NCBI GenBank assembly: GCA_002118135.1
Contig: BDIU01000078.1
Coordinates: forward strand, 6,638 to 70,637
Length of the DNA stretch: 64,000 nucleotides
Reading direction: 5' to 3'
Source: Trebouxia sp. TZW2008
Lineage: Eukaryota > Chlorophyta > Trebouxiophyceae > Trebouxiales > Trebouxiaceae
Positions 3,110 through 60,519 of the stretch are shown piece by piece. The notes beneath the pieces were generated by a model. That model worked only from the letters and a program-made list of their open reading frames with translations. It was not told the origin of the DNA and ran no database searches. Made by a program: the position numbers and the translations under genes. The number at the start of each line of letters is the position of its first letter. The first letter of the stretch is position 1.

Positions 3110-6100
3110 ATGCAGACACCAGATGACCCTCTGCTGCAGTTGCTACACTCTTTAGATATACAAGACGCGGCTGGCCGGACACAGCAGCTACAGAACTTGC
3201 AGGTACGCTCAATGCAAACCTTTGCAGTCTGTTGCCAGGCCGTTTCAACCCTCAAGCCTATACCTGAGCTTGATCACAGAGTGATCACAGCTCTCTATGC
3301 AGTGTTGTTGTGAAGCAAGGCTCATTGCTACTGCCACCTCTCAGCTTGAGTCTGAGCTCGAGTCCTGCATGCTTCACTGGTGTTCTTGCTCCACAGGTGT
3401 CCACTCAGAATGCTGGCGTGCAAACAAGTCAGCTTCAACCTGTAGTTGACAGTCTGGTTCAGCTGATCAAAGATAGCAACCACAAGGTATGCACAGCAGC
3501 AATTTGAATGTTTTGGCTGCTAAGTCGCCATGTCAATGCTGAGTATGGACAAGAAGTGCTGATGCAGGTGTCCCAGCAAGCCATCAGCGCTTTGCAGGCT
3601 GTTATCAATGCTAAGGGACAGGACCTGATTGGCTATAGCAGCTGCTTTCTGCCTACCCTGGTAAGGTTTGCCTACCAGCTGCATCTTGTTGTCAACAAAG
3701 GATAACAATATCTGAATGTGAGGCCTGCATACCTTGTCATACTGCATAAGTCACCAGGTTGTGACATTGGCTTCTTGTGCACTGTTTGAAGCAGGAGCAA
3801 TGGTTGTAACTCAAGCGCGCAGATGCCTCATATGCTGCAAGTTATGCCTATGTTTCCTGCCGTACCACAGGATCCATCATGTAGCATGCGTCTCCACATG
3901 TAGTTCAACATGCATCTATTAAGCTATAAAACTCCAGTTGAAAAGAACGGCAACATGCCCATGCTCAAAAAGTTTCAGCATGGTTTGTCTACAAACAGCG
4001 CGCTTAGGCCTATTGTACTTCTGGTCAATTGCCTATTGGTCCCAATGACCTTTGACCAAGTGAATGAGTAAATGAATGAATGCTGATGTTGACTGTTTCT
4101 ATGGCAGCTTGACCGCCTTGGGGACGCAAAACAGCCAGTCAGAGATACATCAATAGCAACCTTGCATGCCACGCTGCAATCTTACCAAGCTGTAGCCAAT
4201 CCACTAAAGCTTGCCCATAGGATTCATCACCTTGTGTTTGTGAGCAGCACAATTTGGCCTGCTGCGCTACTTACTTTGAATCTGTCTGTGGCAGCTTGAT
4301 CGGCTTGGGGACGCTAAGCAGCCAGTCAGAGATGCAGCAACAGCAGCACTGCACTCCATTCTGCAATCTTGGGGAGCTGCTGCCACTCTACCAAAGCTAG
4401 CTCTTAGTTGGTACCATCGCAATGCGCGGGTCAGGCAAGGCATGCTGCAAGCCGTCACAGAGACCATAGCCGCAGCGCCAGTGTCGTTGAGCCTTCCAGA
4501 TAGCTGGGCAGTGTTGGTCTTGAAGCCAGCTGCTGAGTTGTTGGAAGATCCCAACAGGTGTCCTGTGCTGTGCTGTGCTATCCTGTCCTGTCCTGTCCTG
4601 TCCAGTCCTGTCCTGTCCTGTCCTGTCCTATCCAGTCCTGTCCTGTCCTGTCCGTGCAATGGATGTATATGTTTGATGCATGAACTGTAGAACTGTATGA
4701 GAGTCATTGCAATGTGCTCATATGCTGGACACATGAACCAAAGGCTGGACCTCAAAAGCTCAATCCACAGGCTCATGTATATATGAACCTTGGTGCACCT
4801 GAAAGCTCGACACATGCAATGCCTTTGATCATTTGTTGCTGAGGTTGGCAAGCACAACAGTGTTGCCAGTTGATGACCATGCACTACATCAAGGCACAGG
4901 TCTGTGTGGGCCCCTTTCTCTACACTCCTGTGCGTGAGGCTGCCATGATGTGCAATTTGGGTTGTTCTGCATTACTGTCTCTGCGATCCTGTGGTTGAGG
5001 CTACCCTTCACTATCAAATCTTTGGTACTTTCGGGCTATGGGTTGTACAGTGCTGTTCATGAGAATCAATAAACCATACCAACCATTATGTAACTTCCTC
5101 TGCCCTGCAGTGCTGTGCGCGAGGTTACCAGACTTCTGGTGCTGTTGGGCTGTTGCCTTTGCCGTGCTGCTCATGAGACTGCCACACAGTATCCAGACTC
5201 TGCTCTCTGTGCGTTACTGCCTCTGCCGTTCTGCTCATGAGGTTAGCATATCATACCAGTCTTGACTCTTGCACAATTTTTGCCTCTGCAGTGCTGTGCG
5301 CGAGGCTGCCATTGACTGCATTGAGGAGCTGCACCAGCAATTGGGGGACACAGTCATGGACCATCTGCAAGTTTTGCCTATACAGCCCGCACAGTTGAAG
5401 GGCCTGCAAGCCAGGTTCAGTCAGCTGTCCAGCAACAGCCAGATTGTACAAGACTATCCCTTGTTCCAGGCAGTCACTACTGAGCCTGAAGCACAGCAGC
5501 TAGACAGCATGACAAGCAGATCAGACTGTTCAAGTCAGGTGAGAAGTAGCGGCAACAAAAGCTCATGCTGTCAGGCATAATAGCAAGAGCCTATGTAGGC
5601 AGTCGTTGCTGGACCTGAAGCACAGCAGCTTGACAGCATGATAAGCAGATAAAAGTATTCAAGACAGGTAAGCCCTGCCTATACAGTCTGCACAGCTCAA
5701 GGGACTGCAAGCCAGGTTCAGCCAACTGTCCAGCAATGGCCAGGTGGTATAGGATTGTCCCATATTCCAGGCTGTCACTGCGGAACCTGAAGCACAGCAA
5801 CTGGACAGCATGACGAGCAAATCAGACTGGTCAAGTCAGGTAAGAAAGGACAAGCCGGCCTGGCAAGACAAAGACGTGTGCCACACACACCTAGCCACAC
5901 ACGTTGCTAGAGTGTGTCATCTGTTCAGAAAGAACAGAGGGCCAATCTTGTGCTGCCAGGCTTTGTTATCAGGCTCTCAGCTGCCAGAAGCAGCCTGAGA
6001 ACAGCTCAGATACATTGATGCCTGAGTTGACGTCCAGTGCTTGGATGCGCCAGAGATTGCTGTTCACACAAGAGTGTGCAACTTATGAGATGGCCAGCAT

Positions 6101-9100: not shown

Positions 9101-12100
9101 AAAGCTGTATTTGCTGCAGATTCTGGAGGATTGGGAGGCAGACACCTGCATCAAGGGCTTAGACTTGGTGGAGGTGTCCATAAGGAGCGCTGCCCAAGAT
9201 TCCTCCTCTGATACACGAGCCATCGGGCGCAGTATGTATGCTGCCTATGCCAGGACATTGCCAGCACGTGCAGAAGCCTTTCTGAGGCGCATGGACACTG
9301 CCCTACAGGAGAAGCTCAGTCAAGCAACGCTTACCTACATTCCAGGTCAAATATGCTTGTCTTTGTTTTGTTTGCTGCGTATGCCAGAGCCATGCCGCCA
9401 CGTGCAGAAGCCTTTCTGAGGCGCATGGACACTGCCCTACAGGAGAAGCTCAGTCAAGCAACGCTTACCTACATTCCAGGTCAAGTATGCTTGTCTTTGT
9501 TTTGTTTGCTGCGTATGCCAGAGCCATGCCGCCACGTGCAGAAGCCTTTCTGAGGCGCATGGACACTGCCCTACAGGAGAAGCTCAGTCAAGCCACCCTC
9601 ACATACATTCCAGGTCTGACGTTCTATCATGTATATTGATACTGTACAACATCCGCATGTACGCTGCCTATGCCAGAGCCATGTCCACATGTGCAGAAAG
9701 CGTTCTGCGGCGCATGGACACTGCCCTGCAGGAGAAGCTCAGTCAAGCAACTCTGACCTACATTCCAGGTCCAATTTGCATGGCTATCATTAAGTCTGCA
9801 TACCCTTGCTTGATAACACTAGTGCATACGCTGGCTACTGAGAGCCATGCTGCCACATGCAGAAGCCTTTCTGAGGCGTACACTGACCTACAGGAGAAGC
9901 TCAGTCAAGCGGGTTTCACATGCACTCCTGATCAACTGTGCTGGCGTACACTTGCATCTCTAGGCCATGCACGGGTGCATTCTTTGAGGCTTGGGGAGAT
10001 TGGAATGTAGCCAACTGGTCATGCTGCAGTGTTGAGGTCTGGAACTGCAGACATGTAACTTGCCCTTGTCGTGTGCGAGACAGTATCAGCCGCTGGTGAC
10101 AAGCCAGGTGCAAGTTCTTGAGAAGCCATTGTTGTGTGCAGGACAGTATCAGCCGCTGTTGACAAGCCAGGTGCAAGTTCTTGGGAAGCCATTGTCGTGT
10201 GCAGGACAGTACCAGCCGCTGTTGACAAGCCAGGTGCAAGTTCTTGAGAAGCCATTGTTGTGTGCAGGACAGTACCAGCCGCTGTTGACAAGCCAGGTGC
10301 AAGTTCTTGAGAAGCCATTGTTGTGTGCAGGACAGTATCAGCCGCTGTTGACAAGCCAGGTGCAAGTTCTTGAGAAGCCATTATTGTGTGCAGGACAGTA
10401 TCAGCCGCCATTGACAGGCCAGCCAAAACTACAGCAGAGCAAGTCTGCACTGCCAGCAGCCTGCAGCTTACCCTTGCCCAACTCCCCCACCCTTCCCTCT
10501 AGACCCCCTTCAGGTGAGTCGTAGTGATGCCGCAGCAAGCTTGGCATCTCTATGCAAATATCACACTGTAAGTTGGATCAGACAGTTGCAATGTGCTTTG
10601 TATTTCTGAAGGCTGCATGCCTCAACGTATTTGTTGCACAGACTTCAAGATGCGATGTGAGACTGCAGAAGGCGAGCTTTCACTTCAGCAGTGCTTCACT
10701 GGACGTCAGACACTTGCTCAGAATGCCGATTTCAGATGCTGTTGTTGGCAACATAGAACTTTGCTGGCATTCTTTTTTCCTTCATCGTGCATTGATAGCT
10801 AGCCTTTCAGAAATGCACCTGTTTCTGCTGTTTAGGTATCATGTCGCTGCAGCAGTCTGCCAGATTGCTTGTACTGCAGCTAGATATTCCGGACATCAGC
10901 CATGTTGCACCGTTCAGCAGCCTTTTGTGGCTGGAAAATCGTTCTCAAGCAAAGTTGTGCTTAATGCCGGCAAACAAAGGCCCATTGTTGCTGTGACTGC
11001 TTGCAGGCAAGTCAGGTCAGGCTCGCAGCATGACAGCATCTGCTGCAGCCAGCTTCTCCAGTGAGGCAAGTCGACCAGGATCCCAAAAGGGCAGATTACG
11101 CAGATCAGTCGGTGGCGCTGCGCTGCGCATTCTCAGCTCATCTACACAGGTGCAGCACGCCAGCAATGTCATGGTCCACATTCTGATTCTGACCCCAACA
11201 CTTGCTACGATGAGCAGTCCTGGCATACGCATAATCATGACATTTCACCCAGTAGAACATGTTTTCCTGCTTGATGACGTGATTTCAGTAGTTTAAGCAC
11301 TGTGCTGGTCCATTATGTCTGAGTTCCAAAGGCTTGGATTGTGTGTACAAGTCACACCATTGGTTTCGGGTGCAGAGTGATGATCTCGAGCTACAAAACC
11401 AGCAATCAGATCTGCACTGTGAGCGCGTAGAGTTTCCTCCATGCCACCACCAGCACCAGTCAGCCACAGCAAAGCCCAACACACTGTTTCAAAGTCAGTT
11501 AAATTTTTGGATGCAGGGTGAAAATGATGAGCCAGGAACAATTGCAAAAAGAGCTGCCAGTCCTCTGACTAAATCTCTTCTTGCATGCAGAATGAAGATT
11601 TTGAGCCAGCAACAAGCACAAAACCAGCTGCAAGATCTGCACTGTCAGCTCGTAGAGTTTCCTGCATGCCACCGCCTGCACCAGTAAGCCATAGCAGGGC
11701 TGCCACCCGCAACCCCTCTGCAGTCCCCCCTACCCCCTCTGCTGCTGCTGGAGCCAAGAGAGTGGTCCATGCTGCACTGCCTAGCTGGGAAGACCCTCAG
11801 CGCTTGCAGGTGGTTTTGGTCGCCAGCTGTTGCATGTACACAGCTGTGTGAGCGATGCATCATGTCTCTGCTTGCATTGCAATGCAAGGTCTTGGCCATC
11901 TCTGTCTTCTGACAGCTTGTCATGTTCAGACACACGTTATATCACTGCCTGATCAGCAAGTGGCAGCTGTCGCAAGCATGGTCTTATCTGCTCTCTGCTC
12001 CCTGAAACCCTTGGTAGAGGTCAATGATGACTTATGATGGATGGGTTTGCACATGCATGTGCTGACATTCTGCAGCTCGAAGGCTCGTAGCTCCTGTGCA

Positions 12101-15100
12101 AATCGGTTGCAAATGGCCCTTCATGCTGCCTACATCAAAACAAGCCGTCAATGCAATGATGTCGTCTCTTCCCGCCTTTCTGGCTGTCCACCTAAGGTGC
12201 TTTTCAAAATCAGCTTCTGCCTGCAGAGTGACCGCACTACACCGCACCAACAACAGCCTTGCTCACAGCTACCACGCAGCGAGCCTTCAGAGCATTTTGA
12301 GGCTGCTGCAACTGACCATGCACAACTGTCGGCAAGGTCAGATGCATGGATAGATGCTGTGTCAGCGCCCTCTGCAAGCCGAGTACTGACAATGGCTGCA
12401 GCTGCTGGTACTGACTGGAAGGCCAGGGCGGAGGTATTCATAGCTATGCACCAGCTATTCCAGCCTGATGCACAAACACCATTGGACCTGGCAAGCTGCA
12501 GTGAGAAGCTGGTTCAGCTTTTGCTGGAGCATATAGGTGAGACTGCTCCCATGCACGTAATGGCTGACTGCATGTTCACAATCTGCATGTCCAAATTGTC
12601 AGACTGTCCCATTGCAGCCTTGATGCACAGCCATCACTGGAGCTAGCAAGCTGCAGTGAGAAGCTGGTTCAGCTTTTGCTGGAGCATATAGGTGAGACAG
12701 GCTCCGATTCGCTAAATGCATGCAGGGTCTTGACTGAATTTGTACACTACGCGCGTCCAAATCTGCAAGAGTGTTCAACTGCAACAGCGATGCAATGGTG
12801 TTGGGCTTCCGGATATTAGGACGCTTGGTTTGTTGCCTTAGCGTACCTTCACAGCCATTCTTTTGTATACTGACCTGCCTGTTTGGCCAAAGACAGCAAT
12901 CTCGGCTGGTCAATTAGTTCGCTGACACAGTTGGTCAATTGGTTCTGATGGTGTAGGTGATGCTCACTTCAAGGTGGCCAGTGCTGCACTAGAAGCTGCC
13001 CAAGCCGCCTTGCAGCATCATCCTCATTTGGTAGAGCCAAGCTTAGACCGGCTGATGCCGCTGCTGGCACAGCGCATCACAGATCCTAAAGAGGCAGTCA
13101 GGACAAGTGCCACAGGGTAGGCAATACTCCTGTATCGATTTAGAACATGTCTGCATGTTGAGTTTGCGGCACCATTTTTATGTCTTGTGCAAGTTGTATT
13201 GCAGCATTGCCCTGCCTTAGCACAGGGAAGCTTGGACCGGCTGATGCTGCTACTGGCACAGTGCATCACAGACCCCAAAGAGGCCTTCAGGTTGAGCGCT
13301 ACAGGGAAAGCATTGCTCCAACGCTGATCTTACCAGAGTATGTCAATATGTTGAGTATGCAGCCCAACTTGCATGTCTAGCAAGCGAAGTTGCAGCATCA
13401 CCCTGCCTTGGCACAGTCAACCTTGGACCGGCTGATGCCACTGCTGGCACAGCGTATCACAGACCCCAAGGAGGGAGTCAGGGCAAGTGCTACAGGGCGA
13501 GCATCGTTTCAATGCTAGTCTTGCCAGAATTTGCCCAACTTCCCGGCAATTTGCAGTATAGCTTGCATGCATTGCGCAGGTTGTGCCGCATGCCGGCTTA
13601 ATGACCTCAACAGGACAAAATTGCACTGCTGACCCATATTGTAAACATGTCGAGGCAATTGGACACATGTTCAGATCAACAGCTATGTTTGCATGGCTCT
13701 TGATGCAGACAAGCATGCATGAAGCCACAGACATTTGAGCATGAACATTGCATACAGAAGTTGGCATTTGAACAAGCTCGGAGAAACTCAAATGCATGTC
13801 ATGATGACTGCACTTGCTTGCAAAAGCTTTGCAGGCCATATGCATGATAAGCCTAAATGCAACCTGTCATGATGATAAGTGCAGGTGTCTGCAAAGTGCC
13901 CTGCGGCACTATGCTGTAGAGGTCAGCTTGCCCCAGCTGACTAGATGCCTAGATGTGCTGAAGATGGCCAAGACCAGATGTGCGCTCTTGGACGTCTTCA
14001 CTGCTCATTGCGGCCACAGTGTGACCACTGCTGCTGCCTTGCCTGCCCTCAGGTGAGACACGTTGCTTGCCTGTCTCATAGACAAGAAGTATAGTGTACT
14101 CTCGGCTTTGCACCATATATGTTGTGCAACAATCCCCTGGCTGCACTGTGCCATATGATAAGGTGTGCAATCCATGACTGCCTTTGGACTGGATCTTTGT
14201 TGGACATCTTCACTTCTCATAGTGGTCACAGTGTGACCACAACTGCTGCTTTGCCTGCTCTCAGGTGAGACACATTACTTGCCATCTGCGCAGATGCGCT
14301 CTCCTAGATGTCTTTGCTGCTCATGGCGGTCACAGTGCTGCTCTACCTGCTCTCAGGAGAAACAGCACGCTTGCCATGTCATGCTTCCAACATGCCATTG
14401 CATCAATGGGCATTCCAGTCGACTCCTGGCTTTGCTCTTTAGAGATGAGATGTGCACCAAAATCTGGCTGTAGAGACAGACCTGACTGGTCATTAATCCT
14501 GATTACTCCAGCTGGCTTGACTTTTCTGACATTTGCTGCACAAGGCATTCCCACTCCCAACAATGTCAAGCGCTGTGCAGGTGCCAGGCTCTATTCTTCC
14601 TGTTAAAAAAGCTGTGAGCACCAGCATGCTGCAAGATGGAAATTTTTAATGGGCTATGTGGTGCCTTCAATTTGTGTATTGCAGCAGAGCATGGGTGGGG
14701 CGGGTCTCAGCACAAACATGAGCTGTGTGTGGCCCAAGTCCTGGGCTATGAGTGAAGAGTGGTGATTTTTGTTCTACATGCTGATATAAGAACTAGCTGT
14801 GTGTGGCCCAAGTCCTGGGCTGAGGGTTGTATCAATGTTTGTGTCTTGCTGTAGCGTCTGGGCAGGGCAGGTCACGGGGCTGGACGGTGATCACAAGGCT
14901 GAGGTGCAGCGCGCTGCCTGCCAGGCTCTGCACCTGGTGTGCACATGCATGGGCGGATTCACCCTGCTTGCCCACATGTTTGGTGGGCTATGATTGATGT
15001 AGGGTTTGTGTCTGGCTGCAGGGTATGGGTGGGGCGAGTGGCGGGGTTGGTGGGTGACCGCAAGGCAGAGGTGCGGCGGGCTGCCTGCCAGGCCCTGCAT

Positions 15101-23300: not shown

Positions 23301-24455
23301 GCACAACAAGTGTGGGGGTGTGGGGAGGGTTACTTCTGTGTGATGCTGCCCACGCCATTGTTGCAATTTCAGGTGATAGTGAGCAGTCATCCCATTGATC
23401 CACATATATGATCATGCCATGTAATGAGTTCAGGTGGTATTGAGCTCTGCTTTTTGATGTTTTGCATGCAGGCGCATGGCGTGAGAGCAACTTCAGGTGA
23501 CAGTCATAGCTTTTGCTTGTCAATCGGCAATCTACATGTGTACCAGGCATCAGGACTCAGCAATGACAATCAGTTGCATGCCCGTGATCATGCTTTGAAC
23601 AGTTGTGCTTTGCTCAAGAGATATGTCATGTCAATTCTGAATACACGGTAAGTGCGTCAGGCTTTGCGACGCAGGGCAAGGGCTAAACCAGGGACTTGAA
23701 GATGCGGCTGCCCTAGGGCATCATCTACAAACAGGAGGGCTTTGCCCTGAAACGCTCAGGGCGTTTGAGGCCTCCCGCATTCTCAGAGTACAGGAAATCA
23801 TGGCAGCTGAAATGGTAAGCTGCTGCCAGTGTTAAAGCACTAGCTGCAAAGGCTGTTGTCAGCGCCTTGTCACCAAGTTGTCTGGGCAGCAGGAAGTCAT
23901 TTACTTAAAAATTCACTCCAAGATGTGATTCAGTAAAATTCAACATATCTGATGAGGCTGCAGCTTCTCTGCAGCTCTATTTTAAGAAGTTGATGCTGGA
24001 AGAGAAAACAAAACCTCAGAAAAGTGCTGCATGAGCCTATCCTTATTGCGTGACGAAGTTTTGCACTCTTTAGACATGACTTTGCAAATGCCATGATGCT
24101 GGATTTTTGGACCAACAGATTCTTTGTGGCAGGACTTGCTGATGTGTTGCTGTAAAAACTTGCTATAAGATGTGTGAAATTTGCCAAATTTGGCCGTTCG
24201 TTGCAATTCTGTGACCAAGTTCCAGATTGATCTGAGCAAACTGTTTGACCTGTACTCAAACAGTTTGCTCAGATCAATCTTATCTCATCTTGGCTGCTGG
24301 TTGCTGATGTGCAGGCAGGTGCTTTGGCAGCTAGATCTAAGATTCCTGCGCCAGTTCCTAAGGAATTGTCAAAGTACAAGTATGCCACCCAGATCCTGAC
24401 CACAAGCTCGAAAGAAGAATACCAAGACTGGCTGCTACAGGGCCCTTTGCAATAG
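20320..24455 (+). CDS. FAD-dependent monooxygenase (7 exons)
   Basis: Flavoprotein of the salicylate hydroxylase/zeaxanthin epoxidase-like class, which uses FAD, NAD(P)H and oxygen to hydroxylate or epoxidise a small substrate. Exons: 20320-20412, 20536-20692, 21153-21442, 21874-22125, 22850-23036 (start could be 22838), 23675-23814, 24315-24455; phases agree, about 419 residues. Visible motifs: the N-terminal Rossmann GxGxxG (AIIGAGPVGLATA, about residues 5-17), the FERASDLRPCGAGF segment, the DG motif (IGADGVFSKVRQ), the FAD-ribityl motif (VTLVGDAAHAM) and GQGLNQGLEDAAALGHHL. No transit peptide or membrane helix is evident from the ATG used, but an upstream start was not excluded. The substrate cannot be told from sequence. 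The donor of exon 5 has three decayed copies downstream. Confidence 0.88.
21727..21873 (+). repeat. GGCATGACT minisatellite ending at a splice acceptor
   Basis: About nine degenerate 15-17 bp units (GGCATGACTGATGCAT type) run directly into the acceptor of monooxygenase exon 4, so the exon start GGCATGACC is itself one unit. Confidence 0.8.
23085..23498 (+). repeat. Three decayed copies of the GDAAHAM exon end
   Basis: The copies at about 23085-23186, 23247-23375 and 23467-23498 repeat the GTGATGCYGCY-ACGCCATG core and the CAG/GTGA donor of monooxygenase exon 5. Frames are broken and the flavin motif is altered in each. Confidence 0.8.
24224..24280. repeat. Perfect 25-bp inverted repeat (hairpin) in an intron
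   Basis: The left arm 24224-24248 and right arm 24256-24280 are exact reverse complements around a 7-nt loop (CCTGTAC). The hairpin lies 34 nt before the exon-7 acceptor of the monooxygenase gene. Confidence 0.95.
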
Positions 24456-24479
24456 CTAGCTGTGCAAATAACAAATATA

Positions 24480-24484
24480 TGTAA
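24480..24484 (+). terminator. TGTAA poly(A) signal of the monooxygenase gene
   Basis: TGTAA 25 nt after the TAG stop. Confidence 0.5.
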
Positions 24485-50100: not shown

Positions 50101-53100
50101 TGCTTTCGCCTACACTGTTGCTTCCATCGTTTCTTCTTATTGTCACTCAAACTCCTGCTTGCTGTCGCCACCTCTTCTTCTGCTTCACCACTGACTGGAT
50201 GCATTGTCACGGCACCAGCACCTCCTCTTCTTCTGCTTCTTGCTGTGTGACCACCTCTTCTTCTTCCAGCTCTTCTTACTGTCATCTAAAAACTTCTCCT
50301 TGATTCCACCTATTCTGTCACTGCTTCAGCGCTATTCATGGTGCTGTCGCACTGTGCCAAGACAGCTTCTCTTGAGTGCTTCAATCCCATGAATGTTTCT
50401 GATTGTCATGTCTAATTCCGCCTAAACACATCATCATTAGCAGAACCCGGATAAAAAAGCAAAGCCCTTGCCTGACTCGTACATCAGCAGTGCTGACTCA
50501 GCAGCACTGTCTGCAGGTGCATTGGCTGCGGGTGATTCTGGATGAGGGTCACATGCTGGGTGCCAGCCTGACCATTACTAACAAGCTGCAGATGGCCTGC
50601 GCACTCAGGGCTGACAGGTGAGCTGAAGCTGTCACACTTAAGATATGGACTTTAAACCTTCTCTGGTGTCAATGTTAATGATGGACAACAATATCGCGTC
50701 CCAGCACATGTGCTAGCTGTGTGTGGCCCAAGTCTTATCTTGTCAGGCTGGTGTCTACGCGAGTTCATGATAGCGCTTGCACAGCATTTGGGCGGCCATC
50801 AACCGTCACGCTGCTGTGTGCGACTTTGCTTTCTTCTCAATGCTGCACCTTGCTGTAACAACTTGGAAGTGCCGTATACACATGTTATATGCAGGCAGCG
50901 GGGGACTTGAGGAACCCTTGCACCCTCCACTCCCACCTCCAATGTGGCCCAACAGCAACATAATTGATACTGGACAACTCAGAAATGCAATTCTCATGTT
51001 ACGTGTAGGCAGTGAGTGATGTCTGATAAGCCCCAGCGCCTGTGGCCCCCCCTCAAGTGTGGCCCGTAAGGGTCATCACTGACATGTCATGCATATGGGT
51101 CATCATGCTGACAGTACTGATGTGACATGCTGACCTTTGGTTGGGTCATCAAGGCAATGAGACATATATATATACACACACATATATTAAAGTTCACTGA
51201 CTGAATGATCATCGTGTGTTGGGTCCAGGCGGTGGGTGATGTCAGGGACCCCCACCCCCTCCAACCCCACCTCTCATGTGGCCCACCTGCAGCCTGCCTG
51301 CTATCCTACAGCAGCAGCCCTACAGCACCCCAAAGTGCGTCGTCAGAGACCTGACTGATCTGTGATTTTCCATGGCTGAGGGGCGCATGGTGTACAGGCA
51401 GTTGATGATGTCAAGGAACCCCATTTCTTCTACCTCGCAATTCACCTGGGACATGTCTGACGTGCAACACAATGTGACTGATGCACGTGCACATGCAGGC
51501 GGTGGGTGATGACAGGGACCCCCACCCCCTCAACCCCAACCTCCCATGTGGCCCACCTGCAGCCACTGCTTGCGTTTCTTCAGCAGCAACCCTATGGCAC
51601 CCACAGAAGAACCTGGGAGGTAGGGCTGTTACCTTCTGACCTCAAGCCCCTGCCCTGCCTGACTTTGCTCTGCCCTGCCCTGCCCTGCCTGGCTTTACAC
51701 TGCCCTGCCCTGCCCTGCCCTGCCCTGCCTTGCCCTGTGCTTTGCTGTGCTGTGCCGAGTCATGCCATAGCAAGCTGTGTTGCCTTGCCCTGCCCTGCCC
51801 TGACTGCCCTGCCTCTGCTGCACTGCGCTGTGCCATGCCGTGCTGTGCTGTGCTTTGCTGTGCTATGCTGTGCCGTGCCAAGCTGTGCTGTCCTGCCTCG
51901 CAATGTGCTGAGCTGCGCTGTGCTGTCCTCCCTTGCAATATGCCGTGCTGCCTAGCTTTCCCCTGCCCTTATGTGCCCTGTCTTGCCCTCCCTTGCCCTG
52001 CCCTGCTCTGCCGTTCTTGTGCTGGCACCCACTGACTGCCTTTGTGGATGCTTAGGACGCTGTACAAAACCCTTTGAGGCAAGGCAAAGGACAGGGCGGC
52101 AGCGGCTAATGGCCCTTCTGAGTCGCATGATGATCAGAGCAGCCAAGTCAGATCTCGTTGCCATCCCTCCCTATGATCACAAGATGCACACTTCACCTTG
52201 GACTGTTTCTGAGTGCACTTTTGGGTGGTGCAGGACGCTGTGCAGAAGCCCTTTGAGGCAAGGCAAAGGGCAGGGCGGGAGCGGCTAATGGCCCTTCTGA
52301 GTCGCATCATGATCCGGGCAGCCAAGTCAGATCTGGTCACCATCCCTCCCTGCCATCACAAGGTGCATACTGCTGCATCATCGTGATCATAATCGCTTGA
52401 ATTATACGCCTGCCATTGCAATTCTGTGACCCTGCTAGCGCCTGAATCACACCTTCAACATCAGTCAGGGCTCCATTATCCTGTGTCTTGGCATGGCAAT
52501 TGTCAAAGTACGCTGGCATCTGCTTTTTGTAAGATGTAGGGGCCAACTGCTGATACACAGCACACCGAAGAGTACATGAACTGGTTAGCTGCTTTACATC
52601 TGCATTTGACAAGCTCACTTGGATCTTGTCAAGCTTTTGGACTGTGTTGCCCATGACACCAATTAACTCAGCAACCTCTCCACACCAACATCTGCAACAA
52701 TGGCAACATGTCAAAATCAACATCAGCGACAACACCAATGTACACTGACATCAATACAATCAATCTAGGGGTGCCTGCAAACTAGCCTAGGATCTCTGAC
52801 AGCTGTGGTGCAGGTGACTAAGCTAGACTTTGCGCCTGAGCATGCATGCTGCTACAACGAGCTGATTGAAGTCATCAAGCTGAATTTGCTGCTGGCTGGC
52901 TGGAATGATGAACGCAGGGTTCCAGAAGCACAGATCAACTTGGGCTTGCATACGCAACAGCATCAAGATTCAGAGCCTGAGGATTAGTCATAGCTGTGGT
53001 GCAGGTGACTAAGCTGGATTTTGCGCCTGAGCATGCATGCAGCTACAACGAGCTGATTGAAGTCATCAAGCTGAATCTGCTGCTGGCTGACTGGAATGAC

Positions 53101-56100
53101 GAGGACCACAACGAGAGCCTGCTGAGCGTGCGGAACAGCAAGTGGGGCAAAGAGATGCTGCGCAATGTCAGGTCAGTACAGAAGTCCATTCTTGCATTGC
53201 TGTCACTAAATTTGTCATGAATTGTGTGATGGAAACAAAGCTGAGTTTGCCCTGGCTGACCAGAATGATGAGGACCACAATAAGAGTTTGTTGAGTGTGC
53301 GTAACAGCCAGTGGGGCAAAGAGATGCTGCTCAACGGGTCAGTGCAATGTTTGCTTTACAGTTTCTGCAGATGGATTGATACTGCGCAACTGTCCTGTCA
53401 GTGCAGAACTTGACTGGTGTTGAACCTTTTTTCCTTGTGGCATGTTTTGTGTCTTGCAAGAGAGAGCTTCATGTCTGGCATCATCGTGTTAGTAGACCCT
53501 GAGCGTGCGGAACAGCAAGTGGGGCAAAGAGATGCTGCGTAACGTCAGGTCAGTGCATGATTTAGCTGTTGGTGTTCAGTTTTACAATGGGAGTTGTCTT
53601 CACTAGGAAAGGCCATGTCTGGTTTCATCAGCTGTGTGAATGAGAGGAGTGAACTCTATCTTTTGGATGAGTTCAATTCTCTGCGTTTCAGGCAGCTGCT
53701 TTGCAGATGGCAAACCAGCCAAATTCTGCAATTTTGCTTGGTTGGTTTTTGTTAGACTTTTCTCCACAGAAGTTTGTTTGGCCTGCAGGCTGTCATGCTG
53801 CGTGGCGGGGAATTGTGACTTAGCTGTGAAGGAGACAGATGTGAAAGAGACCCTGGAGCTGCTTGGGGAGCGGTTGGGGTTTCCCCAACCCCAGGCTGAC
53901 TGGGCCCCCTGGGTACCCCCAACCCACCCCCTGGCCTATGTTGAAACTGCCCTCAGGTGAGATCGTATCTGCTCAAATCCCATTTTTGCTTCATGTGGTG
54001 AAGTCTGACAACCTCCACCTGTGCTGACTGGGCCCCCCTGGGTACTCCAACCCACCCCTTGACCTAGGTTGAAACCGCTCGTAGGTGAGAATTCGGCATG
54101 ACAGTGGCTCCTTGCACCCACCTACTCTGCCTCAACTGCAACTCCACTGACAGGCTGACCTGTTCTATCTGCTGCAAATGTTGTTCTTAAAGTGCTGCTC
54201 TTCTTCCTTGACTGGTGCTTCTTTCCAGGCAGGGCGGGCTATGGTCAGCCGTGTGGAGCTTTGGCGCGACTGTGTACTGTGGCTCCTTACACGCACCTCT
54301 GCTTCGTCATGCCGTTCCTCCTCTTCTTCAGCTGCTGCTCTTCTTCTTCAAACGCTGTGCTTCTTCAGGCATGGGGGGCAGTGTCAGCAATGTGGAGCTA
54401 TGGCACGGCGGCCGTCTGTGGCTCCTTGCACGCACCTCTTCTGCCTCAATTGCAATTTTGCAGATAGGCTGGCTTGCCCAAATTGCCAGAAGCGTTCTCC
54501 TTGTTCAAGCCCTGCAAGCTTCTTGAACTGCTGCTCTTCTGCAACCACAGCTGTCCTTCTTCAGGCACTGAGGGCAGTGTCAGCAATGTGGGCCTGTGGT
54601 GCAGCTGTTGACAGTGGCGCCATGCGCGGACTTTTTCTTCTTCGACTGATGCTTTTCCTTTTTCTTCAGTTGCTGATCTTCTTCTTTAATCGTCGTTCCT
54701 GTTCAGGCGTGGAGGGCAAGGTCAGCAATGGGGAGCTGTTGCGCAGCTGCTGACAGTAGCTCCTTGCGCGCACCTCTTCATCCCTGCTGCCCTTCCTCTG
54801 CTGCTCCTCTTCTTTCAATGCTGCTCTTCTTGGATTATTGCTCTTCTTCAGGCAAGGATGGCAGTGTCAGCGGTGTCGGGCTGTGGCACAGCTGGTGACA
54901 GTGGCTCCTTGCGTGCACCTCTTCTGCCTTGACTACATATGCACTGATAGGCTGGCATGCCCAATTTGTCAGAAGCAAACTTCTTCTCCAAGCACTGCTC
55001 TTTTTCTTTAACTGCTGCTCTTCTTCAGGCATGCAGGGGAATGTCAGCAGTGTGGAGCTTTGGCGCAGCTGTTGACGGTGAAATCACTCGCACCTCCTCT
55101 CCTTCTTCTGGCTGTCCCTCTTCTGCACTTTGCTGCTCCCATTCTACATCTCAGACTGATACTCTTCTTCTGCTTGATCATTGACTGTTACTCTCCTTCA
55201 GGCATGGAGGCGAGTGTCAAAATTGTGGAGCTTTGGCACGGCTGCTGACAGTGGCTCCTTGCGCGCACCTCTTCTGCCTCGATTGCATATCCACAGACAG
55301 GCTAGCCTGCCCAAGTTGCCGCAAACCCTACCAGATGCAGTCAGTGTCAGACCCTGCCCGCCTGGAGAACAACCCTAACCCTAAGTGGGATGTACCCATG
55401 GATGTAATTGAGTGGCAGTGCTCCTATACACAAAAGGTGAGCAAATTCTTGCATCAATTAGATGCGGAAAGATGTAGCATGCATGTGTTTTGGATCTGTA
55501 GCGCAATTGCTGCTCTGTTATGGATACTCAGCAGACACAAGACAAGACGTATGCCTTGACTGTGGCATTGAGAGACTGACTGGCAAGAGATATCGTCAAC
55601 TTGCATATCACAAAGTCAATGCCCCAGTGAGTAACAAGCTGCTACTTGGAGTTGTAGATCTTGCAGGCAATGTCATTTACACAAATGCAGGCTTTCAGTT
55701 AATCTTGCTGCTGCTGATGCTGTCTCATGTCAAGTGTTGTTTCACGAGCTCGGAGAGCTAGCGCAAGCAGCAACGCAGTCCCAAGAGGAAACAGCTAGCC
55801 TTGCAAACAAGCAACTCAGCAGAAGCACCAATTTCAAGCCCTATGAAAGCAACACGTACACCAACAGGCACCACTGAAGCTACTGTCAAGTCCTATGATC
55901 TCAGCTCAGCTGACAAATGAGCAGAGAGCTTTCAGTCCTGCCCAACTCATCCATTGCCCATCACAGATCAGCATCACAGCTACTGTGCTAACATCACACA
56001 TCAGTCATGCATGCTTAAGCATGCCGTGTGCCCCTGTTAGTTGCACTGTACAACCCAATCAGCACTGTCCCTGTCACACTTTGACGGTGAATGTCATCGG

Positions 56101-59100
56101 GGGTTTTGCAGGGAGCTTTGGGTTTGAGCGGGGGTGCCTGGAGTGCAAACTGGCAGATCACAAAGTCCACCAAGTGCGTGCATCTTCTTCGCCGCCTCAT
56201 TGACATTGGGGCTGCCCCAAGCTGCCCTTCTCCTCAGGTCAGCCGCCTCATGCAACAACTGTTGTGTTTCTGCTGCATGTCATCATAAAATACCACAGCT
56301 GATACTGTATGATGACAGGTACAGCTGATTTGGCCCGTTTTCATTCAGAGGATGTTGAGCTTGCTTGCATCCAGCTCCTCGTGTCAGATTGCAATGTCAG
56401 GTTGAGTCCTTTATACAAAGTGTGTCATCACCGGCAAGTTCCCATTTCTGAGCATCTTCTCCGCTGTCTGCATTGATCTCGGGGATGTACCAAGCTGCCC
56501 TTCGCCGCAGGCGAAGTACCCCAACCCACTGACATCACAGCTTTCCTGGATGCTGTGAAATGCCATTTGCAATTTGCTGCAATTACTGTGAGCCAGAATT
56601 TTGCACAGACGATGCTGAGCTAGCCTGATGCTGGGCCAGCACTGTGTTATTTTCACTTGCAATGACTGAAGGCAGTCACGCATGCAGAGGCCAGGGCAAG
56701 CAGTCAGAGCCATGACCAAAGCCATAGTGTTCAGCCAATTCTGGATGCACATTCAGCTGATAGCCGCTCACTTGCGAGCTCACAGTGTTCCTGTGGCGGT
56801 GCTGAAGCAAGACATGAGCCCTAAAGACAAGGCTGCAGCTGTGGCCACCTTCCAGGTGTGGCAACATAATCTTCCCTAGTCAACTTGGTTTTATGCTCGC
56901 ACCTTGTCATTAGGTAAACATCCAGCTGAGAGCAGCCCGCTTGCAAGCTCACAGCGTTTCAGTGGAGGTGTTGAAGCAGAATATGAGCCCCAAGGACAAG
57001 GCTGCAGCTGTGGCCACCTTCCAGGTGTGGCAAGACGACTGACCACTGTCAACTTTGTTTCATGCTTTGAGCCTTTTCTTTGGACGCACATTCAGCTGAT
57101 AGCTGCTCACATGCAAGCTCACAGTGTGCCTGGGGCGGAGCAGAGCATGAACCCCAAAGACAAGGCCACAGCTGTGGCCACCTTCCAGGTGTGGCAAGCA
57201 CGGTGCACATTGTAGGCATAGACCCCAGTGTGTCAGCATGAATATCTTTCGTTCAAAACATATGCCAGACAGGCTAGTGGCCCAGCTAGGTACGTGTGTC
57301 AATGTGAAACTCATTATTCAAAACACATGCTAGACAGGCGCAATCAGGTACATGCTGAAGCAATACAGCATTTCCAACCAGTTGGAGCATGGGGGCAATC
57401 GGAGAATTGAACTCCAGACCTCCCGCACCCTAAGCGGGAATCATACCACTAGACCAATTGCCCGTGGGAGGTTTCAATTTTGCCTTGTGGGTTATTGCCA
57501 ATTTACACAACCAAACATACACACTTCATGCCTTGATGCTGCTCAGTCTTGCATCAGCAAGCTGTACATCGAACGCAGATGTACAACTGCACTAATTTCA
57601 AGGAGTTTGTCCTTGCATCAAAGTGTTTGTGCTTGGAAGTCACAACTGCAGCCAGACTGCAGTGACCGGTGCTGAAGTGCATTGTCTTCACCAAGAGACT
57701 GCCCTTATGTTTAGTGTCCTTTTCTCATAATGTCCTGCTCATGCAATTTCTGGCATTAATTCCATTGCTGCTTGTACAACAGCTGTGACATTGCAATGAC
57801 TGTAGCGCTGTGACTGCAGCATGAGGCAGGGGTGGGTGTACTGCTGATGGATGAGACGGGATCAGTGGGGCTAGACCTCAGCTTTGTGGGATGGGTCTTC
57901 CTCATGGAACCTCTTGCGGATGCTAGCCTAAGGCAGCAAGTCACGGCACGAGCTCACCGCATGGGAGCCAGCCAAGCTGTACATGTTGAGACCCTGGTCA
58001 TGAAGGTACTGTTCTAGCTTTGGTCACAGGGCAAAATGGCGAAGACATTTCATTTTTCAGTGCTGTTGGATGTTTGTGATGGGGTCGCATGCGGATGCGA
58101 GACGCAGAGCGCAAGTCACGGCACGAGTTCACCGCATGGGCGCCAGCCAAGCTGTACATGTTGAGACCCTGTTCATGAAGGTACTGTTCTAGCTTTGGTC
58201 ACAGGGCAAAATGGCGAAGACATTTCATTTTTCAGTGCTGTTGGATTTTTGTGATGGAGCCGCATGCGGATGCCAGATGCAGGGTACAAGTCACGGCAAG
58301 GGCTCACTGCATTGGCGCCAGCCAAGCCATGCATGTGGAGACCCTGGTCATGAAGGTACTGGTCTAGCTTTGGTCACAGGAGATCATGGCAAAGACATTT
58401 CATATTTCAGTGCTGTTGGATGTTTGTGATGGGGTCGCATGCGGATGCGAGACGCAGAGCGCAAGTCACGGCACGAGTTCACCGCATGGGCGCCAGCCAA
58501 GCTGTACATGTTGAGACCCTGGTCATGAAGGTACTGTTCTAGCTTTGGTCACAGGAGATCATGGCAAAGACATTTCATATTTCAGTGCTGTTGGATGTTT
58601 GTGATGGGGTCGCATGCGGATGCCAGACGCAGAGCGCAAGTCACGGCACAAGCTCACCGCATGGGCGCCAGCCAAGCTGTACATGTTGAGACCCTGGTCA
58701 TGAAGGCATTGTTCTAGCGTTGAATACAGAACGCAGCAAAAGGACGTGTTCAGCGCTATTGGGTCTGTTTGATGTAACATCTTGCGGATGCTAGCCTAAG
58801 GCAACAAATTGCGGCACGAGCTCACAGCATGGGAGCTAGCCGTGCGGTACATGATGAGACCCTGGTCATGACGGTATTGTTCAAGCATTGAACACACAGC
58901 GATGAAAATGACAGCAAAAGGACACACCCAGTGCTATCAGGTGTTTGGGATGGAACCTGTTGCAGATGCTAGCCATGACTCTGGTCATGAAGGTCACAAT
59001 TTCAGGCATTTTGGTTGAGATGATGTCCATGACAGAAATTCGGCAAGTCTTGCTGACGCCATAGCATGCATACCTGTCAGAGGATCGGTGCAAGTGCACA

Positions 59101-60519
59101 ACAGTCTGCAAAAGCAAGCAGAATTGTACAGGAGAGAAAATGCTGAGGGGTTTTGTTGACCTAAAGCTTTCTGCTGCTGCTCGAACGCTGCTTATTTTGC
59201 ATTGTGATGGTAAATTTGATTTGTTGGTGGTGCTGCAGGGAACAGCAGAGGAGCATATTCTGGATGTCAACTGTGTTTCTGCGATCTTACAAATGCATGA
59301 CTAAGGACTGCTGAGAATCCGGAGAAGCAACAAGTGTATCAGCACATCAAATGCTCAGGCTGCTCTCAGTGACTTGGAACACTCTGCTTCTTGAAAGACC
59401 CATATTTAGCAGTATGATGGCAAGTTTGGTGTAATGGTGCTGGTGCAGGGAACAGCAGAGGAGCATATGCTGGATGTCAACTATGCTGATCAGACTGTTT
59501 CTGCTTCTCAGAGTAGCAAACCCTCAGCTGCGGCACCACATGCATCAGCTGCACAAGCAATGCAAGGGTCACAGCAAGCAATGGTCCAGGCATCATCACA
59601 CGTTGATCAAACCCAAGCCCCAATGGCGATGCAGTCACAGACTGCAACATCGGAAGTGACAGCAGCAGCAGCAGCAGCAGCACAGGATGTTGCAGCTCAG
59701 ATTCAGTCTGATGCTTCACAGCTTGAAGCTCAGCGTGCTGATGCCATTGCACACCATGATGGTTCAAATTTGGACAGCACAGAGGCAGCACAGCATCTTG
59801 CAAGTTCAAACCAGTCAGGGGCTTCAAAGCTTGAAGCTCAGCATGCTGAGGCAAATGCACAGCATGATGGTTCAAACTGGTGTAGCGCAGAGGCAGCACA
59901 GCCTCTTGCAAGTCTGAATCAGCCAGATGCTTTACAGCTTGAAGCTCAGCATGCTGAGACCCCTGCACAGCATGCTGACTCAAGACAGCTGGCCAGCACA
60001 TGGGCAGCACAGCACGTTGCAACTTCGGATCAGCTGGCTGCTTCGCAACTTGAAGCCCAGCGTGCTGATACAATTACTCAGCATGATGGTGCTCAAACAA
60101 ACAGCATAGTGGCAGCACAGCAAAGCAGCAGGGTCAGCAGTGCTGCTCAGCATGCTGAGCCATTCGCACAGCATCGTGAGTCACAGCTGCCCAGCACAGG
60201 GGCAGCACAGCCAGGCAGCAGTGCTGCTCAGCATTCTGGGACAGTTGCACAGCATTATAAATCACAACTGGGCAGTGCAGAAACAGCACAGCATGCTGAT
60301 ACAGTTGCACAGCATGATGGCTCTCACTTGAATGGCATAGAGCCAGCGCAGCAAGGCAGCAGGGTAAGCAGTGCTGCTCAGGGGAGAGAAAGGAGTGAGG
60401 CTGCAAGACGTGGTGCACGCAACAGCCTGCTGCTGTCGCTGCATAGAGTGGCAGTTACAGAGCTAGCAGAGTACCAGGACTTGCCTCTTGCTGCAAGTAA
60501 GCGCCTTATGCATTTCTGA
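38121..60519 (+). CDS. F-box, CW zinc finger, SNF2 helicase and RING protein
   Basis: Homologue of Arabidopsis At3g54460, a predicted chromatin remodeller/ubiquitin ligase. Supported exons: 39019-39150, 39817-39960, 40863-41013 (F-box), 42573-42758, 43182-43326 (motif I GLGKT), 43934-44134, about 44597-44731 (CW: WVQCDLCNKW), 45500-45599 (second CW cysteines), 46343-46485, 47054-47183, 47295-47426, 48091-48261, 49397-49530 (GYDLVITTFTRLSADW), 50517-50617 (DEGH), 51499-51619 (TGTPTP), 52234-52362, 53005-53171, 53789-53956, 55202-55436 (RING), 56112-56237, 56688-56855 (IVFSQFW), 57820-58005 (GLDLSF, RAHRMGA), 59449-60519. Phases match except around the CW exon. The N-terminus (ATG 38121, MADHPQSHEQC) and the exons up to 39018 are uncertain. 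At least 1450 residues. The Ala/Gln/His-rich C-terminal tail is unusual. Nearly every intron carries copies of the neighbouring exon. Confidence 0.88.
39310..39780 (+). repeat. Tandem copies of the SNF2-gene exon at 39817
   Basis: Copies at about 39460-39547 and 39615-39760, with a further faint one at about 39310-39400, repeat the exon that encodes SLSSCFLELP and its Ser/Pro tail, at roughly 165-bp spacing. Confidence 0.75.
40210..40300 (+). repeat. Interspersed repeat family B, fragment
   Basis: Contains AGTAAGGACAGTGTGAAGTA and AAGGACAATTTTCTTGG, shared with longer copies at 42940-43100 (inverted) and 49140-49325. Confidence 0.5.
40595..40835 (+). repeat. Two decayed copies of the F-box exon, upstream
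   Basis: 40595-40690 and 40729-40835 each follow a TTGCAG-type acceptor and repeat the LEDLSDYIVSNILSQLSH part of the F-box. The copies then diverge and the second has a stop in the second codon. Confidence 0.85.
41100..41995 (+). repeat. Six or seven copies of the F-box exon 3' half
   Basis: Copies at about 41100-41190, 41216-41346, 41405-41485, 41540-41637, 41715-41814 and 41885-41991 repeat the segment for DLAAASSTCTALRAQALQAV and PGLKLHLYPHQ. Several end in CATCAG/GTCAG like the real exon end at 41013. A single frame through much of the array stays open from 41230 to 42048. Confidence 0.85.
42940..43100 (-). repeat. Interspersed repeat family B, inverted copy
   Basis: The minus strand reads TTTGTAAGGACACTCAATGT and so on, closely matching the plus-strand copy at 49140-49325 and the inverted copy at 57585-57735. 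Confidence 0.7.
43795..43865 (+). repeat. Decayed copy of the SNF2-gene exon at 43934
   Basis: GTGTGCGCAGTCCCATTTGG through GGGCGCAACCAA repeats the acceptor and start of the Ser-rich linker exon. Another echo of the exon end, with its donor, lies at 44240-44333. Confidence 0.75.
44761..44815 (+). repeat. Interspersed repeat family A, copy
   Basis: GGGGACAGGACTTAGGCCTC, ACACACCCAGCACATGTGCT and GGAATGTGTGATG. Confidence 0.5.
45630..46000 (+). repeat. About six decayed copies of the CW-exon 3' end
   Basis: Short copies of the PEDTTVVKAFAS segment (GTTGTCAAAGCCTTTGCAAG) recur at about 45640, 45690, 45785, 45855, 45910 and 45970, at 55-95 bp spacing. Confidence 0.7.
46030..46310 (+). repeat. 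Two copies of the SNF2-gene exon at 46343
   Basis: Copies at about 46036-46135 and 46160-46312 begin after a GCAG acceptor with ATTCTCCTGGCTATATACAG or a close variant. The second covers nearly the whole exon. Confidence 0.85.
46930..47036 (+). repeat. Decayed copy of the SNF2-gene exon at 47054
   Basis: TTCAGGCAACCCATGACGGT echoes the true acceptor and exon start, 60 bp upstream of it. Confidence 0.65.
47184..47241 (+). repeat. (GCTGT)n pentanucleotide microsatellite at a splice donor
   Basis: Ten near-perfect GCTGT units start five bases after the GT donor of the exon ending at 47183. Confidence 0.95.
48650..48715 (+). repeat. Interspersed repeat family C, copy
   Basis: ATGCTAGACAGGCTCAAGAG and GCCCAGCTAAGTAC. 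Related copies at 57250-57300 and 57310-57355; an inverted fragment at about 33392-33425. Confidence 0.55.
48888..48992. repeat. Imperfect inverted repeat with a palindromic core
   Basis: Arms of about 50 bp meet at the perfect core GCTACACTTCCAAGTGTAGC. Both arms contain GCTTGACAGCATTTG when read outside-in. Confidence 0.85.
49140..49325 (+). repeat. Interspersed repeat family B, long copy
   Basis: Contains three GTAAGGACA blocks, CTGCATTCTGACTGCAGTTG and AGGACAATTTGG...CTTGGGAACCAAAGCAG. It is the same element as 42940-43100 in the opposite orientation. Confidence 0.7.
49655..50060 (+). repeat. Tandem copies of the RLSADW exon end with TTC tracts
   Basis: Copies at about 49665-49716, 49845-49889 and 49995-50046, plus a decayed one at 50180-50225, repeat the CTCAGCGCTGACTGGATGCA through CCCCTCACTCAGGTCCTG segment. 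Each is followed or preceded by (TTC)n-rich tracts. Confidence 0.85.
50695..50755 (-). repeat. Interspersed repeat family A, inverted copy
   Basis: The minus strand reads CAGCCTGACAAGATAAGACT, TGGGCCACACACAGCTAG and CACATGTGCTGGG, in line with the plus-oriented copies. Confidence 0.6.
50890..51445 (+). repeat. Four decayed copies of the TGTPTP (motif III) exon
   Basis: Copies at about 50892-50960, 51004-51065, 51230-51340 and 51395-51450. The third is nearly full length (GCGGTGGGTGATGTCAGGGA) but has indels. Confidence 0.85.
51640..51965 (+). repeat. CTGCC/CTGTG pentamer-rich intron
   Basis: Some 320 bp of imperfect CCTGC and GCTGT repeats following the donor of the TGTPTP exon, the third case of this pentamer class after a donor in the window. 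Confidence 0.9.
52053..52184 (+). repeat. Frameshifted copy of the exon at 52234
   Basis: About 90 percent alike over its whole length. One base is missing early (GTACAAAACCC versus GTGCAGAAGCCC) and the donor has become AAG/AT, so the copy cannot replace the real exon. Confidence 0.85.
52337..52738 (-). other. Antisense coding-like remnant in an SNF2-gene intron
   Basis: A minus-strand frame of about 130 codons (segments GVMGNTVQKLDKIQVSLS and TSYKKQMPAYFDNCHAK) reads like protein, overlapping the exon only at its end. A minus-strand frame in the monooxygenase intron at 23982-24239 has a faintly similar layout (TSYSKFLQQHISKSCHK), and both share GCAATTCTGTGACC. They may be remnants of a mobile element; I recognise no transposase. 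Confidence 0.3.
52812..52985 (+). repeat. Copy of the exon at 53005, ending in a stop
   Basis: The first ~105 nt match the real exon closely (VTKLDFAPEHACCYNELIEV), then the sequence departs and stops at 52985. If retained it would truncate the helicase after motif III. Confidence 0.85.
53240..53550 (+). repeat. Two further copies of the 53005 exon end
   Basis: Copies at about 53243-53337 and 53498-53548 contain SLLSVRNSKWGKEML-type sequence and a GTCAG donor. Confidence 0.85.
54000..54085 (+). repeat. Decayed copy of the exon ending at 53956
   Basis: Repeats GCTGACTGGGCCCCCTGGGTAC and the CTCRTAG/GTGAGA end with small indels. Confidence 0.85.
54095..55090 (+). repeat. Array of about seven RING-exon copies
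   Basis: Copies start near 54095, 54228, 54365, 54565, 54705, 54850 and 55028, typically with a (TTC)n-rich pyrimidine tract and CAG acceptor. The copy at 54365-54500 keeps every RING ligand (CQQC, PCTHLFCLNC, CPNC) and the acceptor phase of the real exon. The 54850 copy has one Cys changed to Tyr. The others are truncated. Confidence 0.88.
56440..56515 (+). repeat. Decayed copy of the exon at 56112
   Basis: GCATCTTCTCCGCTGTCTGCATTGAT and CCAAGCTGCCCTTC-CCGCAG echo the LLRRLIDIGAAPSCPSPQ exon. Confidence 0.75.
56915..57190 (+). repeat. Two copies of the helicase exon at 56688
   Basis: The copies at 56918-57028 and 57086-57189 each end in GTGGCCACCTTCCAG/GTGTGG like the real exon and differ by small deletions. 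Confidence 0.9.
57250..57355 (+). repeat. Interspersed repeat family C, two tandem copies
   Basis: TTCAAAACATATGCCAGACA and TTCAAAACACATGCTAGACA, about 60 bp apart; the same family as 48650-48715. Confidence 0.55.
57392..57463 (-). tRNA. tRNA-Pro (anticodon AGG)
   Basis: The 72-nt minus-strand sequence folds as a tRNA. The acceptor stem GGGCAAT pairs with ATTGCCC over 7 bp. The A-box region is TGGTCTAGTGGTATGATT. The anticodon stem CCCGC/GCGGG holds the loop TTAGGGT, giving anticodon AGG (proline, codon CCU). The T arm is TGGAG TTCAATT CTCCG. There is no intron and no encoded CCA. The gene lies antisense inside an intron of the SNF2-type gene, between the helicase exons at 56688-56855 and 57820-58005. 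Confidence 0.95.
57585..57735 (-). repeat. Interspersed repeat family B, inverted copy
   Basis: TTTGTCCTTGCATCAAAGTG, CTGCAGCCAGACTGCAGTGA and TTAGTGTCCTTTTCTCATAA match the layout of 42940-43100. Confidence 0.6.
58080..58995 (+). repeat. Five tandem copies of the helicase motif VI exon end
   Basis: Units of about 175-180 bp start near 58086, 58263, 58444, 58617 and 58785, with a short sixth at 58960. Each repeats the CAAGTCACGGCACGAGTTCA through GGTCATGAAG/GTACTG segment (TARAHRMGASQAVHVETLVMK). The true exon ends at 58005. Confidence 0.92.
59230..59300 (+). repeat. Copy of the start of the last SNF2-gene exon
   Basis: GCTGCAGGGAACAGCAGAGG through GATGTCAACTGTG duplicates the acceptor and first ~35 nt of the exon at 59449 (GTAEEH-LDVN). 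Confidence 0.8.
59690..60360 (+). repeat. Coding tandem repeats in the C-terminal tail
   Basis: Degenerate units of about 120 nt encode roughly 40 residues of the form SQLEAQRADAIAHHDGSN followed by STEAAQHLASSNQ. There are about five good units, then shorter AQHAEPFAQH-type units. The plus frame is open throughout. Confidence 0.85.

Follow-up and report, generated by a model that had tools for sequence, protein, structure and literature searches.

How do the introns of several neighbouring genes in the green alga Trebouxia sp. TZW2008 come to contain sequence that resembles the adjacent exons, and what becomes of such copies? The question is raised by a stretch of 64,000 nucleotides of contig BDIU01000078.1, which was analyzed as a whole and is referred to as the window.

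Genes and exon models of the window

The exons were set by spliced alignment of the Trebouxia proteins P0140, P0141, P0121 and P0001, plus P0122. For the comparison of exons with introns, 50 hand-listed exons were used, which belong to three of the five genes, namely CLASP, the monooxygenase and the SNF2-type gene (Table 1). P0122 originates from a contig of 3,669 bases and its alignment spans several listed exons consecutively; it may represent a transcript. Four of the five gene names given in the initial annotation hold by homology (CLASP, FAD monooxygenase, PP2C and F-box/SNF2/RING), while the draft of the fifth, the putative exonuclease, matched no Pfam family. The family of the PP2C gene was assigned by a Pfam match of the draft protein, and in the CLASP-like gene one exon gave a weak match to CLASP_N (Pfam). 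The nearest relatives of three gene drafts are mostly Trebouxia proteins.

Zero-length rows as well as short or weak rows of the spliced alignments were left out of the exon list, among them 39536-39549, 40706-40712, 43934-44188 (28 of 80 identical), 44426-44479, 10142-10170, 57338-57347 and 59239-59265. Rows in two long open stretches were fused into the exons 15679-17121 and 59449-60516. The exon ends 7843, 8595, 19407 and 60516 were set by hand, 46343 was taken from the ab initio model, and the weak exons 24315-24440, 12227-12536, 21874-22125 and 20536-20692 were retained. The listed boundaries 8595 and 10399 are wrong by a few bases; the exon listed as 10399-10513 probably starts at 10394. 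P0141 lacks part of exon 4295-4557, and the aligner placed ten residues on the copy at 4108-4137; here P0140 was followed. As judged by eye beside the spliced alignments, the CLASP introns at 7843 and 8595 seemingly begin with GC, not GT.

A peroxidase gene is located on the minus strand (60671-63989), with a Pfam match (PF00141) on its draft and an ascorbate-peroxidase-like appearance by eye. Unlike the neighbouring genes, it has no entry among the local direct repeats of the self-comparison.

Table 1. Positions of genes and exon copies in the window.
Feature	Position	Strand	Details	Basis
CLASP-like gene	3110-19407	+	23 exons listed, copies for 13	Spliced alignment to P0140/P0141
Acceptor-side copy of exon 4295-4557	4089-4220	+	77% identity	Exon-versus-intron comparison
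Donor-side copies of exon 5292-5538	5597-5846	+	Two copies	Exon-versus-intron comparison
Copies of exon 9120-9345	9393-9910	+	Four copies, the first with 98% identity over 127 bp
Tandem array, unit 63 bp	10062-10422	+	5.7 units, each holding the start of the exon listed as 10399-10513
Donor-side copy of exon 12227-12536	12611-12708	+	53-bp identical run
Donor-side copies of exon 12957-13116	13199-13497	+	Two copies
Copies of the 3' part of exon 13885-14052	14200-14337	+	Two copies
Acceptor-side copy of exon 15022-15169	14837-14977	+
FAD-dependent monooxygenase gene	20320-24440	+	7 exons listed, the last one weak; copies for 1	Homology, spliced alignment
Donor-side copies of monooxygenase exon 5 (22850-23036)	23130-23503	+	Three copies
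Array, unit 173 bp	26415-26855	+	Gene region of putative identity (putative exonuclease)	Self-match
Repeats	27430-27849		Putative exonuclease region	Self-comparison
Repeats	33548-34010	-	PP2C gene region	Self-match; PP2C by Pfam
F-box/SNF2/RING gene	39853-60516	+	20 exons listed, copies for 13	Homology, spliced alignment
Copies of F-box-part exon 40863-41013	40586-41993	+	Two acceptor-side upstream, six donor-side downstream
Acceptor-side copies of exon 46343-46485	46032-46302	+	Two copies
Copies of the 3' end of exon 49397-49530	49666-50222	+	Four copies
Copy of exon 52234-52362	52032-52192	+	Both junctions, the sole such copy among 74
Copies of exon 53005-53171	52784-53557	+	One acceptor-side upstream, two donor-side downstream
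Copies of RING exon 55202-55436	54099-55080	+	Seven copies, six of them acceptor-side
Donor-side copies of exon 56688-56855	56918-57197	+	Two copies
Array, 3' part of exon 57820-58005	58090-58994	+	Unit 175 bp; five long copies and two short matches

Number, orientation and distribution of the copies

Comparison of the window with itself yielded 122 same-strand self-matches, 116 of them with an offset below 1 kb, and 10 inverted matches, none of which has an offset between 1 and 2,000 bp. No match was obtained when the same comparison was applied to a Markov-shuffled window. At least one direct copy lies in a neighbouring intron for 27 of the 50 exons, adding up to 74 copies with a maximum of eight per exon, while inverted copies in neighbouring introns were found for none of the 50 and a match was obtained in 1 of 250 control draws. 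Chance as the origin of the copies is ruled out by the shuffled window, the control draws and the lack of inverted copies.

These results confirm the initial annotation in that the exon copies are real and, with identities of 74-98% (75-90% in 60 of the 74), of very different ages. Other parts of that description have to be revised. Donor-side copies, which had been called the usual type, are about as frequent as acceptor-side ones (31 versus 29). The spacing had been given as 55-180 bp; between nearest neighbours within the window it ranges from 62 to 334 bp, with 41 of 57 values at 109-200 bp. The statement that almost every exon is concerned is an overstatement.

Three DNA queries were run against the 68.5-Mb genome (527 contigs), and among the best candidates scored all reported matches (2 of 2, 7 of 7 and 6 of 6) fall on the locus from which the query was taken. 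A dispersed element was rejected, as the queries matched their own locus alone among these candidates.

The copies are not confined to one contig; such confinement had been named in the initial annotation as an outcome that would refute the phenomenon. Of 18 stretches taken from other contigs (165.9 kb in total), 17 carry such local repeats, with 183 direct versus 24 inverted pairs and 16.5% of the bases covered. For 56 of 176 ab initio exons on these contigs a direct copy lies within 900 bp, compared to 4 inverted matches. The density claimed in the initial annotation holds for the sampled part of the genome, with about half of the exons concerned instead of nearly all. Assembly errors, i.e., collapsed or expanded repeats, are an unlikely source, because the copies diverge well beyond sequencing error and the same pattern recurs in the 17 stretches.

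Whether exons are preferred as targets was approached by random placement and by simulation. In the random-placement test 35 of 48 pairs (73%) touch an exon where 26 are expected (p = 0.004). Simulated exon contact amounts to 0.34-0.35 at younger ages and to 0.56-0.74 at older ones, and the hint at targeting, given by random placement and by the younger ages, is not claimed because the older ages raise the expectation that far. Targeting of exons may occur, but the models do not need it: when old duplications are simulated at random places and their exon-derived copies decay half as fast, 65% of the detected pairs touch an exon.

Geometry of the duplications

All 29 copies holding only the acceptor are located upstream of their own exon and all 31 holding only the donor downstream of it, a polarity which is partly forced by geometry because the offsets are short. 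These half-exon copies with one junction make up 60 of the 74, whereas 13 have no junction and one has both. Such polarity is the expected trace of a tandem duplication over one splice junction, if the outer intact junction stays in use. Being direct, local and polarised, the copies support the tandem duplication of splice-junction segments that had been proposed for the window. On other contigs, where cruder ab initio exons were used, the same tendency is seen with more noise (acceptor-only copies 41 to 7, donor-only copies 33 to 12); 42 copies there are without a junction and 9 have both.

After correction for detection, units of 100-200 bp are the most frequent (14.7 and 11.1 per 10 bp), with densities of 4.0-5.8 per 10 bp at 50-100 bp, 4.0 at 200-250 bp and at most 1.0 above; units below 50 bp are invisible to this analysis. 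Nucleosomes and Okazaki fragments are of this order of size, and either could fit the units. The 170 unit lengths are spread evenly over the remainders of 3 (57, 56 and 57), so that none of the frames is preferred. There is no correlation between the length of an exon and that of its unit (rho = -0.21, p = 0.25, n = 32).

The following course of events, taken as a whole, is considered probable. A mutational process acting across the genome would create direct head-to-tail duplications of about 100-200 bp. Where a unit extends over one splice junction, splicing would stay with the outer intact junction, i.e., the first donor or the last acceptor, and the gene would survive the duplication because this junction is still used. 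The surplus half-exon would turn into intron, and repeated or unequal events would build arrays of up to eight copies. Subsequently, the exon-derived part of a copy would change at roughly half the neutral rate, a value derived from simulation, and old copies would therefore remain recognisable by this part, with the intronic rest of the unit fading.

Splicing presumably ignores the copies. In each of the three genes, the copied exon parts match one place well in the proteins of relatives and any second place weakly. The top second-place scores were obtained for CLASP exon 5 in P0140 (73, best 257) and for CLASP exon 4 (53, best 106); for CLASP exon 12, with a short copied part of 8 residues, the scores of 21 and 19 are too close to separate. 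CLASP has internal repeats.

In most two-copy pairs the match spans about half of the offset, which is also true for pairs of high identity. When the spacers were tested for homology over their whole length, the mean z was 0.5 over 64 pairs, with z > 2 in 9 of them. A first expectation (z about 9) was too simple; proper simulation gave a mean z of 0.6-1.8 at identities of 75-90, the cases above 90 being too few (2 and 5). In a local test, homology between a flank and part of the spacer was detected for 27 of the 64 pairs at p ≤ 0.05, where about 3 are expected. The assumption that all copies were spaced from birth was dropped after the proper simulation and the local homology in these 27 pairs.

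As a general explanation, duplications which were spaced from the start, either as 'alternative duplications' by 3'-flap Okazaki processing or as templated insertions at breaks, seem unlikely. They would account for the 37 of 64 spacers without significant homology in the local test and for the coverage of about half of the offset at high identity, but not for the spacers matching a flank, for the several arrays that are contiguous, or for matches ending near the splice site, which is unexpected for a random copy. The results are read as probable contiguous duplication with a fast-fading intron part, while the pairs without spacer homology may have a spaced origin.

Decay of the copies and growth of the introns

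The proposed slow decay rests on the comparison with simulated contiguous duplications. Among non-array pairs with an identity of at least 85 and a length of at least 60, 22 of 25 have a spacer. In the neutral simulation this applies to 17 of 206 young high-identity pairs; older pairs do have spacers, but only 5 of 254 and 0 of 86 are of high identity. Simple neutral decay was rejected on the contrast between 22 of 25 and 17 of 206, together with the neutral comparisons of codon positions, AG retention and copy families given below and the better fit of a half-rate model. In that simulation, the exon-derived parts evolve at roughly half the neutral rate and exons are not targeted; the mean identity is 79.3 (observed 80.3) and exon contact 0.65 (observed 0.73), and of 46 high-identity pairs 33 have a spacer (observed 22 of 30). 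It deviates in the share of high-identity pairs (0.115 versus 0.176 observed) and of spacers (0.72 versus 0.61 observed).

The changes within the copies hint at constraint on supposedly dead sequence. Differences at third codon positions exceed the mean of first and second positions by a factor of 2.28 (bootstrap 2.00-2.63; one copy per exon, 25 exons), compared to 1.44-1.51 in neutral simulation, where sets of 25 range over 1.14-1.98 at most; without CpG-prone sites the excess decreases from 2.12 to about 1.95. Stops occur at 5.7-6.4 per 1000 codons versus 7.8-15.1 in the neutral simulation, and frame-breaking gaps are rarer than in that simulation, whose gap rate is assumed. The AG is retained in 29 of 30 acceptor copies compared to 181 of 257 simulated ones of like identity, several of the copies sharing arrays. 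Five of the 30 belong to an array for which the exon start was set 5 bp too far in, and 24 of 25 remain without them. Between copies, the exon-derived part is less diverged than the intron-derived part in 13 of 13 families (means 0.26 and 0.45), which is partly expected because the exon lineage is constrained between duplications and intron parts align badly. The synonymous share of polarised changes is 0.35 versus 0.26 expected (p = 0.003).

These values would fit functional copies, with half-exons entering some transcripts as alternative or cassette exons and being kept by selection on the protein and the splice sites. Several results argue against it. The frame-blind periodicity of nearest-neighbour pairs, a test in which pairs without an exon dilute the signal, is no more than neutral (about 1.4 over 36 pairs in the window and about 1.55 over 61 pairs on other contigs), and the polarised changes do not differ significantly by codon position (74/65/94; p = 0.06). 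An in-frame stop or frame-breaking gap is present in 27 of the 74 copies, 73 lack at least one of the two junctions, the donor GT is retained in only 28 of 35, and the proteins of relatives contain the copied exon parts once. Moreover, the AG count includes the five copies at the mis-set array start, and detection by similarity favours slow copies. Function of the copies is thus quite unlikely, and it is equally doubtful that many half-exon copies are under purifying selection on splice site and reading frame, as a stock of partial exons which is recognised and at times used. If true, introns would be a store of working exon variants supplied by size-limited duplication.

Gene conversion from the exon, which would keep the copies alike, is very unlikely. 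It would fit the long identical runs in otherwise diverged pairs, e.g., 53 bp at 12457-12708, and the run test, which gave p < 0.05 in 13 of 92 pairs with about 5 expected. However, conversion should erase synonymous differences as well, yet third positions differ most. It also has no reason to end at the splice site, whereas donor-side identity there declines steeply, from 0.90 to 0.65 over five bases, with values of about 0.5 and below further on and ~0.35 by 50 bases. For the exon-derived parts of duplicated units, the slow rate may stem from past or present use, from conversion or from residual bias.

The introns of the three genes are lengthened by the copies. Copies constitute 6,191 of 30,973 intron bases (20%), and 28 of the 47 introns contain at least one. 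The median length is 658 bp for introns with and 423 bp for introns without copies (p = 2e-4), and an intron gains about 107 bp per copy. No sign of newly made introns was found: similarity of the intron start to the start of the next exon, or of the intron end to the end of the previous exon, exceeded the 99% null score in 0 and 1 of the 47 introns, respectively. Hence an origin of new introns from duplicated exon segments that contain AGGT, a known mechanism (PMC3443670, a review of intron gain; PMC4974935) to which the copies had been linked in the initial annotation, is highly improbable here.

Several known systems can be compared. Tandem-duplication intron gain (Rogers 1989 model; ATP2A1, Hellsten 2011; potato RdRp; PMC4974935) is likewise local and head-to-tail and carries splice signals. 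In potato RdRp the duplicated unit spans an intron-exon boundary (PMC4974935). There a new intron is the outcome, whereas the copies described here lie in existing introns and none was detected as new. Internal gene or exon duplication (Gao and Lynch, 2009, cited in PMC3443670 and PMC4974935) likewise places duplicated exon sequence within genes, but the present copies are mostly one-junction half-exons and intronic. From mutually exclusive or alternative exons they differ by having both splice sites in just one case. Small tandem duplications from break repair with fill-in are likewise short and direct, with insertions below 100 bp (PMC8355091) in contrast to the longer units found here; small duplications in Drosophila are the subject of PMC6380325. 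Alternative duplications by 3'-flap Okazaki fragment maturation, reported for yeast and human cells, likewise have internal sequence between the units (PMC12633238, preprint). Introners are also repeat-made intron sequence with green algae among the hosts (PMC9860276), whereas the copies studied here stem from the exon next to them, and the best candidates of the three DNA queries included no dispersed one.

Overall, the exon-end copies probably represent a variant of already known effects of tandem duplication. Searches of the open-licence literature listed no genome with exon-end copies at such density, and led to one single-gene boundary case (PMC4974935). Trebouxia genomes are given as 63-74 Mb with about 50% GC (PMC11523091). 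The main text of that article contains neither 'tandem' nor 'intron', that of PMC12712428 (Trebouxia genome) neither 'tandem duplic' nor 'tandem repeat', with 'intron' once in the reference list, and that of PMC11126685 (Trebouxia genome) no 'tandem', with 'intron' once as a mapping option.

The exon-end copies demonstrate one way in which introns grow. Intron growth and the source of intron sequence are often obscure because the source is erased; here it can still be read in one fifth of the bases that make up the introns of three genes, and many stages of decay are present together. This provides a natural experiment in two respects, namely the choice of the spliceosome between duplicated junctions and a duplication process whose preferred size is 100-200 bp. 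Such copies will also mislead gene finders; the ab initio model used here called several of them exons.

The introns contain further features. Motifs around TGTGTGGCCCAAGTC and GACAGGCT..GGCCCAGCTA recur, by eye, in introns which are far apart (14725-14823, 50714-50736, 48665-48700 and 57265-57296) and are perhaps remnants of a dispersed element. Five-base repeats of the TGTCC, GTGCT and CCCTG types are located directly after a donor or elsewhere in introns (4559-4653, 47184-47241 and 51648-52012). Finally, a tRNA-Pro gene (anticodon agg) lies at 57391-57463 on the minus strand, within an intron of the SNF2-type gene and on the opposite strand to it.
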